NCBI GenBank assembly: GCA_002714805.1
Contig: PAYK01000015.1
Coordinates: forward strand, 81,527-122,491
Length of the DNA stretch: 40,965 bases
Direction: 5' to 3'
DNA from: Flavobacteriales bacterium
GTDB lineage: Bacteria; Bacteroidota; Bacteroidia; Flavobacteriales; UBA7312
Numbering within the stretch: position 1 is the first letter of the stretch; each line of letters begins with the position of its first letter. Made by a program: the position numbers and the translations under genes. Under the pieces are notes generated by a model that was not told the DNA's origin, did no database searches, and saw nothing but the letters and a program-made list of their open reading frames with translations. Shown here in pieces: positions 24,886 to 29,138 of this stretch.

Positions 24886-25191
24886 ATGAATGTTCCAAGT
24901 AAAATAAAAAATTTATCATCATTTGAATTAGAGAAACTTTGCAATCTTTTAGAGTGTGATAAAATAGAGTTAGAAGAATTTGAAAAATTAGCACTTCAGA
25001 TAGTTGATGAAACTGAACACACCTACGATGCAATGATGAAAATTCTTCAAAAAGGCCTTAACTTGAGAGAAGCTATTATTATTGGTATGATAATTGGTAG
25101 AAAAGAAGGATATCTTCAAGCTGAATCTGATATGGAAGAAGAAATTAAAGATAAATTATATCAAGCCTTTAGAGGAAATAGAAATCAATAA
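24886..25191 (+). CDS. Uncharacterised 101-aa protein
   Basis: A small acidic protein (MNVPSKIKNLSSFELEKLCN...) that looks entirely helical. A hydrophobic helix, LREAIIIGMIIGRKEG, lies near residue 66, flanked by charged residues and followed by an acidic helix. It is probably soluble rather than membrane-spanning because the hydrophobic run is short. No family is recognised. TAGTATTTG at 24845-24853, with a TTTG at 24820-24823, resembles a promoter with one extra base in the -7 box. The divergent neighbour is the Kazal protein; the photolyase-like gene follows 73 bases later. Confidence 0.7.
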   Translation: MNVPSKIKNLSSFELEKLCNLLECDKIELEEFEKLALQIVDETEHTYDAMMKILQKGLNLREAIIIGMIIGRKEGYLQAESDMEEEIKDKLYQAFRGNRNQ

Positions 25192-25264
25192 TTTTTTTGC
25201 ACTCATCTTTTACGCTTATAATCACTTAAATCTGTATTTTTTTTTACTGTTATAGTTATACATA

Positions 25265-26356
25265 ATGATTACAGACTATTCACAAATACTTCAAAAACTT
25301 GAACAACTCAAACCTGTCAAATACGCCAATACCCGCAATTTCATCAATGGAGATGTAAGCAAATTATCTCCATATATTTCTAGAGGTGTAATTTCTACCT
25401 TAGATGTTTTTAAATATGTTATAGCAAAAGGATATCCTTTTTATAAAATCGAAAAATTTATACAAGAATTAGCGTGGAGAGATTATTGGCAACAAATTTG
25501 GATTAATAAAGGAACACTTATCAATTCTGATTTGAAAAATAAACAATTAGGTGTTAAAAATTACCTGATTCCAAAAGCTATAATTGATGGCAAAACTTCA
25601 ATAAAAGCAATAGACGTTAGTATAGAAGATTTTTATAAAAATGGATACATACACAACCACCTACGTATGTACATTGCATCACTGTGCTGTAATGTGGCTA
25701 AGTCGCATTGGAAATTACCTGCTCAATGGATGTATTATTATTTGTTAGATGGAGATTGGGGAAGTAATGCTTTGAGCTGGCAGTGGGTATGTGGTAGCAA
25801 TAGCCATAAATTATATTATGCTAATCAGAACAACATTAATAAATACTGCCATACCACGCAAAAAAATACTTTTCTTGATATCGAATACAATCAGTTTAAT
25901 GATTTAAATATCCCAAAAGAATTAATAGAACTAGAGGATATTATACTGACTACACCACTCCCCAAAATGACTAAAGAAATTATAATTGATATTAACAAGC
26001 CTACATTGATATACAACTTTTATAACCTAGATCCAAAATGGAAAATAAATATTGACGCAAACAGAATTCTTCTAATCGAACCATCTGTTTTTGAAAACTA
26101 TCCAATTTCTAAAAAATCAATGGAATTTATGATAGACTTGTCTAAAAATATTAATAGCATACAACTATACGTTGGCGAATTCAAAGAATTAAAAAAAATC
26201 ACTAAAGAAAGTAATATCTACTTTAAAGAACATCCTTTAAATAAAGAATATTTTGGATATGAAGAAAGTAGAGATTGGATGTTTCCTTCTAAAGAAAACT
26301 ATAATAGTTTTTTTAAATATTGGAAAATTTGTAAAAAAAATCTTATGTCTATTTAA
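25265..26356 (+). CDS. Photolyase/cryptochrome-like FAD protein with reversed domain order
   Basis: A 363-aa protein. Residues 16-200 match the helical FAD-binding domain of photolyases: SKLSPYISRGVIS (32-44), FIQELAWRDYWQQIW (65-79), NGYIHNHLRMYIASL (126-140), and LLDGDWGSNALSWQWVCG (160-177). The N-terminal alpha/beta (antenna) domain that precedes this in canonical photolyases is missing. Instead a C-terminal region (246-361) has alternating strands and helices (TLIYNF, NRILLIEPSVFENYPIS, IQLYVGEFKEL, IYFKEHP) that resemble that domain. DNA repair or light sensing are both possible. A relative lacking photochemistry is also possible. Confidence 0.8.
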   Translation: MITDYSQILQKLEQLKPVKYANTRNFINGDVSKLSPYISRGVISTLDVFKYVIAKGYPFYKIEKFIQELAWRDYWQQIWINKGTLINSDLKNKQLGVKNYLIPKAIIDGKTSIKAIDVSIEDFYKNGYIHNHLRMYIASLCCNVAKSHWKLPAQWMYYYLLDGDWGSNALSWQWVCGSNSHKLYYANQNNINKYCHTTQKNTFLDIEYNQFNDLNIPKELIELEDIILTTPLPKMTKEIIIDINKPTLIYNFYNLDPKWKINIDANRILLIEPSVFENYPISKKSMEFMIDLSKNINSIQLYVGEFKELKKITKESNIYFKEHPLNKEYFGYEESRDWMFPSKENYNSFFKYWKICKKNLMSI

Positions 26357-26440: not shown

Positions 26441-26456
26441 AATTTTATTGATCCAT

Positions 26457-29138
26457 ATGAAAAGGTTTTTAATACTACTATCATTATTTATCAATGTTGA
26501 TTCTTATGCTCAAGTTTTAATTAATGAGTTTTCTGCTCATAAAGGGATCTTTGATGAAAATAACATAGAATCAGATTGGATTGAACTATACAACAATAGT
26601 AATCAAGTTGAACAATTATCAAATTATTTTTTATCAGATGATTTAAATAATCTAGAAAAATGGCAATTACCTAATATTTTATTAGAACCATATCAGTATA
26701 TAATTTTTTATGCATCATCAAAAAACACACAATTCAATGACGGCATAAACAATTATTACCATACTAACTTCAAACTTTCTCCATCTGAACACATTTCATT
26801 ATATAATGGTAATGAAATTATTGATAGCACATTTATTAATAATGACTTATATTTTGGAATTTCAATGGGTAAGTATCCAAATGGTTCCAATCAATGGTGC
26901 TATTTCGATAATTCAACACCGAATTTATCAAATCTTACTAGCGTTTGTTTTTCTAACATTACAAGTCAAGCAAATTTGAATTTAGAATCAGGATGGTATA
27001 ATTCTTCTCAAACCATTATTATAGAGCCCCAAATAAACTCAACAGTTTATTATACTACTGATGGAAGTATTCCAACAATAGATGATATGCTTTACAGTAA
27101 ACCATTAAATGTTAATGAAAATACAATATTATCATTTAGATCATATTCTGATAATAAATTGCCATCAAAAATTAACGATAGAACTTTTCTTTTTGAAGAA
27201 GATAATTACCAATTAGCTGTTTTTTCTATTCACACTGATCCAAATAATCTTTGGAGTAATGACAGCGGGATTTATGTTTCTGGCGATAATCCAAGTTCAG
27301 ATTATCCCTATTATGGAAGTAACTTTTGGCAACCTTGGTCACGATTTTCAAGAATAGAATATTTCGACGAGAATAAAATAAAAAAAGCTGAAGAAAGTAT
27401 TGATTTAGAAATTCATGGTGGTTGGTCTAGAGCTGAACCTCAAAAATCATTTAGAATAGATCTTAAATCAAAATATACCGGTAGATTAGAAGAAATTATT
27501 ATTCCATCAAAAAGTAATATCGGAAGTTATAATAATTTTAATCTCAGAAATGGAGGGCAACACACCTGGTCAGATAAAATACAAGATGCAATCATTGCAA
27601 GAACTTCCTCTGAAACAAATGTAAATTATATGGCTTATGAACCCTGTATTATATATTTAAACGGTGAATACTGGGGTATATATGGAATAAGAGAAAAAAT
27701 TGATGAACATTATATTGAAGATAATTATGGATTTAATTCTGATAGCGTTGATCTATTAAACTCATTTGGTGTTTTAAGCGGAAGTGATATCAATGCTACA
27801 AACACCTATTACTCAATTATTAGTGAAGACCCAGAAAGCTTTGGCTTTTATGAGCTTTTTTCATCACATTGGAATATTGAAAATTATATTGATTATTTTA
27901 TAATACAAACTTTGATTCAAAATATGGATTGGCTTGGTATAGCATGGGGTGCTAATAATATAAAATTATGGAGACCACAAACAGAAGATGGAAAATGGAA
28001 CTATGTATTATATGACACAGATGGTGCGTTAGGATATTTTGGACAAAGCTACTATGAAAACTACCTGTTTTACGCAATGAACCCACTTTTCACAAATGAA
28101 CACTCTCAAATATTTAATCACGTTTTACAAAATCAAATTTTTAAATGTGAATTTGCAAATCGATATGCAGATTTAATTAACTCAGTACTATCTTATGAAA
28201 ATGTTGAAGAAAAAGCCAATATTATTAAAAATGATATTTACTACGCGATGCCAAAACATATTGAAAGATGGGAAAACTATGATAATTTAAACGGAACAAT
28301 AAGTTCAATGACAGAATGGGAAAATAGCATTAATAATATATTGAGTTATTACTCAAATAGAATTGATCCTGCACGATATTTTTTAGGCACTACATTGAAT
28401 TTAAATGGAATGGTTAATGTAAGCTTGGATATATTTCCTATCAACTCAGGAAAAATTGGCTTGAACACTATTTCAATTAATGATTTTCCTTGGGAAGGCA
28501 TATACTACAATGGATGTGAAATTAGCCTTAATGCTATTGCAGACAGTGGATATTCGTTTAAATATTGGACAGATTTAGATGATAATATTATTTCAGAAAA
28601 TAACTATATACAAATAAACTTAAATGAAGTTCAAGAACTTAAAGCTCATTTTGAAAAATGTGAGGATATACTCAATGTTTCAATTTATTCTGAAAATAAT
28701 AACATTTATGCATCATTAATATCATCTAATGAACAAAATACATACTTATGGTACCAAAATGGGATCCCATATTCTACAGATAGTATTCTTTATCAACCAT
28801 CAAGCGGAATATATCATCTAGAAGTTTCTAATAATTTATGCTCAATTATTTCTAATGAAATTAATTATAATGTTAACATAGATGAATTAGATAAAAAACA
28901 AGATTTAAATTTATACCCCAATCCATTTGTAAGTCAAGCAATTCTTGATTTATCTAAATTTCAAGATCAAAAATTGAATATTTTTATTAATGATATAAAT
29001 GGAAGATTAGTTAGACAATACAATGAAATAAATGATAAAAAACTATTAATCAAAAAAGGTAAATTAAAAAGTGGCATATATATTGTAGAAGTAAAATCTC
29101 AAATGAAAACAAATAGAATTAAAATCGCTATAAACTAA
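26457..29138 (+). CDS. CotH-family secreted protein with lamin-tail and T9SS domains
   Basis: A cell-surface protein of 893 aa when started at the ATG at 26457; an in-frame TTG nine bases upstream is less likely. A signal peptide (MKRFLILLSLFINVDSYAQ) is followed by a lamin-tail domain (about 18-125, VLINEFSAHKG). A chitobiase-like beta module (about 180-230, STVYYTTDGSIPT) and a CotH kinase-like domain (about 235-560, with EIHGGWSRAEPQKSFRIDLK, NLRNGGQ, GEYWGIYGIREKID and YDTDGALGYF) come next. Ig/PKD-like strands and a C-terminal T9SS type A sorting domain starting NLYPNPFVSQA complete it. CotH homologues can phosphorylate spore-coat proteins; in Bacteroidota the substrate is unknown. Confidence 0.9.
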   Translation: MKRFLILLSLFINVDSYAQVLINEFSAHKGIFDENNIESDWIELYNNSNQVEQLSNYFLSDDLNNLEKWQLPNILLEPYQYIIFYASSKNTQFNDGINNYYHTNFKLSPSEHISLYNGNEIIDSTFINNDLYFGISMGKYPNGSNQWCYFDNSTPNLSNLTSVCFSNITSQANLNLESGWYNSSQTIIIEPQINSTVYYTTDGSIPTIDDMLYSKPLNVNENTILSFRSYSDNKLPSKINDRTFLFEEDNYQLAVFSIHTDPNNLWSNDSGIYVSGDNPSSDYPYYGSNFWQPWSRFSRIEYFDENKIKKAEESIDLEIHGGWSRAEPQKSFRIDLKSKYTGRLEEIIIPSKSNIGSYNNFNLRNGGQHTWSDKIQDAIIARTSSETNVNYMAYEPCIIYLNGEYWGIYGIREKIDEHYIEDNYGFNSDSVDLLNSFGVLSGSDINATNTYYSIISEDPESFGFYELFSSHWNIENYIDYFIIQTLIQNMDWLGIAWGANNIKLWRPQTEDGKWNYVLYDTDGALGYFGQSYYENYLFYAMNPLFTNEHSQIFNHVLQNQIFKCEFANRYADLINSVLSYENVEEKANIIKNDIYYAMPKHIERWENYDNLNGTISSMTEWENSINNILSYYSNRIDPARYFLGTTLNLNGMVNVSLDIFPINSGKIGLNTISINDFPWEGIYYNGCEISLNAIADSGYSFKYWTDLDDNIISENNYIQINLNEVQELKAHFEKCEDILNVSIYSENNNIYASLISSNEQNTYLWYQNGIPYSTDSILYQPSSGIYHLEVSNNLCSIISNEINYNVNIDELDKKQDLNLYPNPFVSQAILDLSKFQDQKLNIFINDINGRLVRQYNEINDKKLLIKKGKLKSGIYIVEVKSQMKTNRIKIAIN

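Follow-up and report, generated by a model that had tools for sequence, protein, structure and literature searches.

The 363-amino-acid protein encoded at positions 25265-26356 on the plus strand of the window (the whole 40,965-nucleotide stretch of DNA analyzed; positions from its list of open reading frames) is quite probably a reversed-order photolyase of the NewPHL/SPL type. This assignment draws on sequence comparison, predicted structure, and analogy with characterized enzymes, and includes a putative CPD repair mechanism, single-stranded DNA as the substrate, and the job done elsewhere by DASH. In photolyases and cryptochromes the α/β domain usually comes before the FAD domain. In the window protein, the reading frame starts with a photolyase FAD domain and ends with a separate α/β domain, the reverse of the usual order, as supported by sequence and structure prediction. 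The layout is far beyond chance, as relatives keep it in intact reading frames. The present analysis adds a widespread Bacteroidota branch. Most of its genes lie in a cluster for photorepair, and in the order sample none occurs in a genome with DASH.

Domain organization and integrity of the reading frame

A sequence-only reading of the window had proposed a photolyase rearranged so that its antenna-like domain stands at the C-terminus, and both fold comparison and relatives support it. No α/β domain precedes the FAD domain in the window reading frame, which thus departs from the canonical photolyase/cryptochrome order. For the whole protein, AlphaFold gave a single confident two-domain model (pLDDT 94.2, pTM 0.92).

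An in-frame TAG stop (25253..25255, plus strand, read directly from the sequence) lies 9 bases before the ATG; the open frame (366 codons) extends only 3 codons 5' of the start and leaves no room for an N-terminal domain. The upstream reading frame at 24886-25191 had no photolyase match in profile or sequence searches. Among 60 related genomes, 12 encode a relative (E<=1e-30) whose reading frame measures 362-381 amino acids and has no internal stops, and the survey of homologs found the same domain order in frames of like length. The stop and the shared layout together indicate that the gene is not truncated. A misplaced start, named beforehand as the finding that could overturn the rearrangement, was not encountered: none of the examined relatives carries a canonical domain ahead of its FAD domain. 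A canonical photolyase that only seems to lack its N-terminal domain owing to a misassigned start or a frameshift can practically be dismissed, given the upstream stop and relatives equal in length and layout. The next gene downstream (26448-29138) encodes an 896-residue CotH kinase-like protein with a lamin-tail domain and a secretion-tail sorting domain, and has no evident link to the photolyase.

FAD-binding domain and active-site residues

The helical FAD-binding (catalytic) domain covers residues 1-222 (25265..25930, plus strand). Residues 65-190 are recognized as Pfam FAD_binding_7 at E 1.7e-18, with 67.2 bits where 27 would suffice, PDB photolyases match approximately residues 15-183 in sequence and profile searches, and the predicted fold of residues 1-222 superposes on solved photolyase FAD domains with Z of 13-16 and rmsd mostly of 2.4-3. 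With nothing preceding it, this domain comes first, as the sequence-only reading had it. A match to the reverse transcriptase connection domain (Pfam E 0.0012, below its cut-off; PDB E about 0.03) was rejected as a chance hit, because the region folds as a photolyase FAD domain.

Residues were mapped onto E. coli Phr, for which the literature numbering equals that of the K-12 record minus one, and conservation was counted over 68 rows. The alignments took in 67 of the 80 loci and left out 13, either as partial, shortened or frame-shifted (L070, L076, L082, L085, L086, L091, and L092) or as resembling others (L037, L079, L087, L089, L090, and L093). The 67 aligned proteins share 44-81% identity with the window protein.

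The motif E68-L-A-W71 (25466..25477, plus strand; E68 in 67/68 rows, W71 in 68/68) aligns with the lesion contacts E274 and W277 of the E. coli enzyme. H130-N-H-L-R-M135 (25652..25669, plus strand) corresponds to the E. coli HNRLRM motif; its H132, present in 68/68 rows, replaces R342 and is common to all six FAD-first proteins compared residue by residue. W149 (25709..25711, plus strand; 67/68 rows) aligns with W359, the second Trp of the electron chain. Each of the residues named in D162-G-D164...N168...W172-Q-W174 (25748..25786, plus strand) is found in 68/68 rows; D162, D164 and N168 correspond to the flavin-pocket Asp and Asn residues, W172 to the first Trp of the electron chain, and W174 to the lesion-contacting Trp. 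Altogether, E274, W277, R278, N341, R344, M345, W359, D372, D374, N378, W382, and W384 of E. coli Phr are kept, window residues matching the enzyme being E68, W71, N131, R134, M135, D162, D164, N168, W172, and W174. W306 is absent, while R342 and E363 are replaced by H132 and A153, respectively. The sequences thus show a Trp dyad, with W172 in 68/68 rows, W149 in 67/68, and no Trp at residues 88-106 in 65/68. The flavin-facing Asn (N168) is conserved throughout, and C142 is the only cysteine among the alignment columns conserved at 90% or more.

C-terminal α/β domain

The last domain spans residues 247-361 (26003..26347, plus strand), as delimited by predicted structures, fold comparison, and profile comparison. 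Modeled alone, residues 236-363 fold into alternating β-strands and α-helices (pLDDT 88.3) in the order E-E-H-H-E-H-E-E-H. The confident alternating fold bears out one part of the earlier proposal, while descent from the antenna domain is held with moderate confidence, as universal stress proteins tie with photolyases in Z. Family members share on average 61% of residues 1-200 and 54% of residues 241-363 with the window protein, the latter figure indicating that the last domain is also under strong constraint.

The last domain appears most similar to the photolyase antenna domain, and the prediction confidently joins it to the FAD domain in a single unit. In VIA-align comparisons of residues 236-363, the highest-scoring chains are universal stress proteins and N-terminal domains of photolyases and cryptochromes. 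The latter reach Z of 5.5-6.8, in most cases with 118-121 of the 128 residues aligned (e.g., 1qnf with Z 6.8, rmsd 4.8 over 120 residues; 6k8i_B with Z 6.6, rmsd 3.5 over 119 residues; and class II 5o86 with Z 6.4, rmsd 3.9 over 120 residues). The closing segment Y346-N-S-F349-F350-K-Y-W353-K (26300..26326, plus strand; F349 and F350 in 67/68 rows each, W353 in 66/68) was profile-aligned with the closing motif Y..FT.F.k of canonical α/β domains, the family consensus YpSFFxFWKK falling onto Y.VFT.F.K. Against 17 canonical N-terminal domains, the profile of the last domain scores 28.2 (probability 25.7%), compared with 11.8 for the reversed profile and 11.1 for canonical FAD parts. An origin of the last domain from the N-terminal domain of DPRP (PhrB-like) proteins was rejected, the profile score being only 15.3; the lack of a DPRP-containing chain among the listed fold-comparison matches excludes nothing. 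A profile search of the last domain against solved structures gave no match up to E 10, and no solved structure with the reversed order was detected by profile, all photolyase matches of the full profile stopping by position 197.

Alternatively, an unrelated Rossmann-like lid (e.g., one similar to universal stress proteins) might have been fused to the FAD domain of what would still be a photolyase. We regard this origin as rather unlikely, although several results are in keeping with it: Foldseek returned no match under E 0.001 for residues 236-363, Pfam gave no family match at E up to 1 in the window protein and single weak matches in other family members, and the profile score is borderline, the best of 200 column shuffles reaching 26.5. 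Stress proteins also attain similar Z values, all below 8 (3ab7_B with Z 6.6, rmsd 3.3 over 88 residues; 7ji4 with Z 6.3, rmsd 2.7 over 89). However, they align over only 84-96 residues and leave the closing helix uncovered, whereas most photolyase matches include it. Moreover, none of the 200 shuffled profiles attains the real score, and same-order relatives from Deinococcus end in a recognizable photolyase α/β domain (profile probability 95.7% against canonical N-terminal domains). The reading adopted here, with the moderate confidence that the sequence and model comparisons allow, is a photolyase α/β domain that has changed place and diverged strongly.

Other FAD-first proteins and phylogeny of the FAD domain

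The plasmid collection contains FAD-first proteins, annotated as FAD-binding domain-containing protein, in Ruegeria, Novosphingobium, Asticcacaulis, Peteryoungia, and Deinococcus. The Deinococcus last domain matches PF00875 with E of 7e-4 and 2e-4, neither match reaching the curated cut-off. Both domains are fused in the FAD-first order on two Deinococcus plasmids (L096 and L134), and on the Deinococcus sp. QL22 plasmid (L101:2378-3669) the FAD and α/β domains are encoded by two genes overlapping by four bases, a parallel to the split phr4/phr5 genes of marine Synechococcus as described in PMC9426592. No profile similarity connects the window family's last domain with that of the alphaproteobacterial proteins (hhalign probability 0.2%) or of Deinococcus (0.4%); the latter two groups are weakly linked to each other (24.5%).

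In a tree of 48 FAD domains, in which 14 of the 68 aligned family proteins were used, the Bacteroidota family forms one group (98/99). When the PhrB-like rows (branch length 4.1) are present, the alphaproteobacterial group joins the canonical side (87/85). In a 38-row tree, from which 10 long-branched rows of the 48 were dropped (nine PhrB-like and one haloarchaeal), 22 FAD-first rows split from 16 canonical rows (100/100). The sequences thus favor one common origin for the FAD domains of FAD-first proteins, a result that depends on dropping the longest branches. In these trees, NewPHL is represented by alphaproteobacterial and Deinococcus FAD-first proteins standing in for the D. shibae and M. 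mesophilicum sequences; the first 50 kb of the D. shibae plasmid pDSHI01 contains no photolyase among its annotated genes.

Distribution and mutual exclusion with DASH

A scan of GTDB genome contigs yielded 86 relatives, of which 80 loci were examined. They belong mostly to Bacteroidota, where the reversed-order photolyase is widespread, and also to Balneola and to metagenome-assembled genomes labeled Ignavibacteria, Kapaibacterium, and Verrucomicrobia. A contig titled as a Rhodobacteraceae metagenome-assembled genome (L024) carries a Bacteroidota-type copy together with the gene cluster, possibly owing to a binning or labeling error. Eight weak FAD-domain matches were found among phage records, none covering 80% of the query. 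The viral fold library gave two matches under E 0.001, the first being a Tetraselmis virus 1 photolyase and the second nameless in the tables.

In the order sample of 296 genomes, requested at 90% completeness or more, the last-domain profile occurs in 26 genomes and DASH above its cut-off in 89, with no overlap (DASH in 0/26 family genomes vs 89/270 others; Fisher p 7e-5, uncorrected for kinship). This absence from DASH genomes fits an exchange of repair enzymes. The exclusion is weak outside the order sample, and the three samples share genomes: DASH was found in 1/17 family genomes vs 69/279 others of the phylum sample (p 0.08), and in 0/12 vs 10/48 of the 60 related genomes (p 0.19). Among the listed genomes of the genus coded g181, five contain DASH, three contain the window family, and none contains both; such cases make the idea of a stand-in for DASH testable inside single genera. 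In the window's own genome, class I and PhrB-like photolyases are present and no DASH was found.

Gene neighborhood

Among the 67 family loci whose contigs extend 4.5 kb or further downstream, which come from one sequence search and therefore over-represent related species, a PhrB-like photolyase gene occurs in 49 (its type being assigned from the copy in the window genome), a gene for a 450-residue photolyase-like protein downstream in 30, and a flavin-reductase-like gene in 26. At least one of the three is present in 58 loci, and none in nine. The window's own copy sits outside the photorepair cluster, and no cluster gene was found near L015, a close relative of it. More generally, another photolyase-like gene lies nearby in 34 of the 80 family loci examined.

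The 450-residue protein, encoded directly downstream in many family loci (e.g., L020:3089-4444), combines a strongly matching FAD domain (227 bits) with a degenerate N-terminal half, in which PF00875 scores only 16.7 bits, under its cut-off. On another contig of the window's genome (C16, L114:126-4659), a MerR/B12-binding regulator, two flavin-reductase-like genes, a PhrB-like (DPRP) photolyase gene and, further along the contig, a class I photolyase gene beside genes judged by eye to be carotenoid-like together look like a light-response cluster. The translation of this PhrB-like photolyase (L114:3172-4659), likewise inspected by eye, seems to be without the C-terminal iron-sulfur cysteines.

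Proposed activity and alternatives

By analogy, the protein would most likely take over the role of DASH and use light to repair cyclobutane dimers in single-stranded DNA. Light would excite the reduced FAD, and an electron would pass to a cyclobutane dimer held by W71 and W174, so that the dimer is split. Photo-reduction of the enzyme would proceed through a chain of two Trp residues, W172 and W149, since the canonical chain's third Trp is missing. As in NewPHL, the last domain would cover the protein on its FAD side. Dimers in single-stranded DNA, elsewhere dealt with by DASH, are the presumed main substrate, as suggested by characterized NewPHL together with the exclusion with DASH; the class I and PhrB-like photolyases of the same genome would take duplex DNA. 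Emmerich et al. are said to have described NewPHL standing in for DASH in genomes (2020, NAR).

Similarity in the FAD domain does not tell a light receptor from a repair enzyme, and the photolyase-like genes near 34 of the 80 loci could themselves perform the repair. Nevertheless, a cryptochrome-like receptor devoid of repair activity is improbable, since almost all rows retain the mapped residues that contact the dimer, and no genome of the order sample in which DASH was found has the gene. Still more doubtful is a (6-4) photoproduct photolyase, as proposed for Synechococcus Phr4/Phr5 and Phr6, with which the family shares the reversed order (PMC9426592). The family is without the conserved four-cysteine set, C142 being its one conserved cysteine, the mapped contacts are of the CPD-enzyme type, and the genome already encodes a PhrB-like (DPRP) protein.

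Finally, the gene might belong to a Bacteroidota photorepair operon in which the neighboring flavin reductase keeps FAD reduced in the dark, offsetting poor photo-reduction by the Trp dyad, and the swapped domain, its antenna function lost, serves as a lid selecting single-stranded DNA. This elaboration of the proposed CPD repair is highly speculative and seems very unlikely to hold in full.

Comparison with known systems

Reversed domain order is not new: NewPHL (2020), SPL (2021), and Phr4/5, Phr6, and Phr7 (2022) are published. A partial literature search by title and abstract found no paper on the Bacteroidota reversed-order branch, which may nonetheless have been published. By its architecture and residues, the window protein would be filed with NewPHL/SPL; the tree speaks in favor of this placement and is not decisive.

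The literature on NewPHL mentions an "inverted domain topology" and repair of CPDs in single-stranded DNA (PMC13274461), "a mere Trp dyad" in the D. shibae protein (PMC8948257), and a conserved flavin Asn (PMC12083526). The window family shares with NewPHL the FAD domain in first position, a further domain in last position, the flavin Asn, and, by sequence, the Trp dyad. In the tree without the long-branched rows, its FAD domain groups with those of the alphaproteobacterial stand-ins for NewPHL. The alphaproteobacterial proteins are longer (387-410 residues vs 348-366), and their last domain has no detectable profile in common with that of the family.

SPL (Xu et al. 2021, MBE) is described, in PMC9649867, PMC9178010, and PMC9498864, which cite it, as being without the N-terminal α/β domain and as having an FAD part like that of class I/III. 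Both features apply to the window protein; however, SPL is described there as lacking the α/β domain, whereas the window family has a domain of that general fold at the end. Phr7, Phr4/Phr5, and Phr6 of marine picocyanobacteria likewise have the reversed order, with the FAD domain first and a photolyase or "Z" domain last (PMC9426592). The same paper infers (6-4) activity of the marine Synechococcus iron-sulfur proteins Phr4/Phr5 and Phr6 from four cysteines; Phr4 and Phr6 carry these iron-sulfur cysteines, unlike the window family.

The class I CPD photolyase of E. coli (Phr, L129) resembles the window protein in its flavin and lesion residues and differs in the opposite domain order, the Trp triad, and R342/E363 in place of H132/A153. 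FAD-first photolyases on Deinococcus plasmids (L096, L134, and the split L101) share both the domain order and the FAD-domain branch; their last domain is recognizably PF00875-like, whereas that of the window protein is much more diverged. The FAD-first proteins thus offer a natural series for the change of domain order, with a recognizable last domain in Deinococcus, a diverged one in Bacteroidota, and another in alphaproteobacteria.
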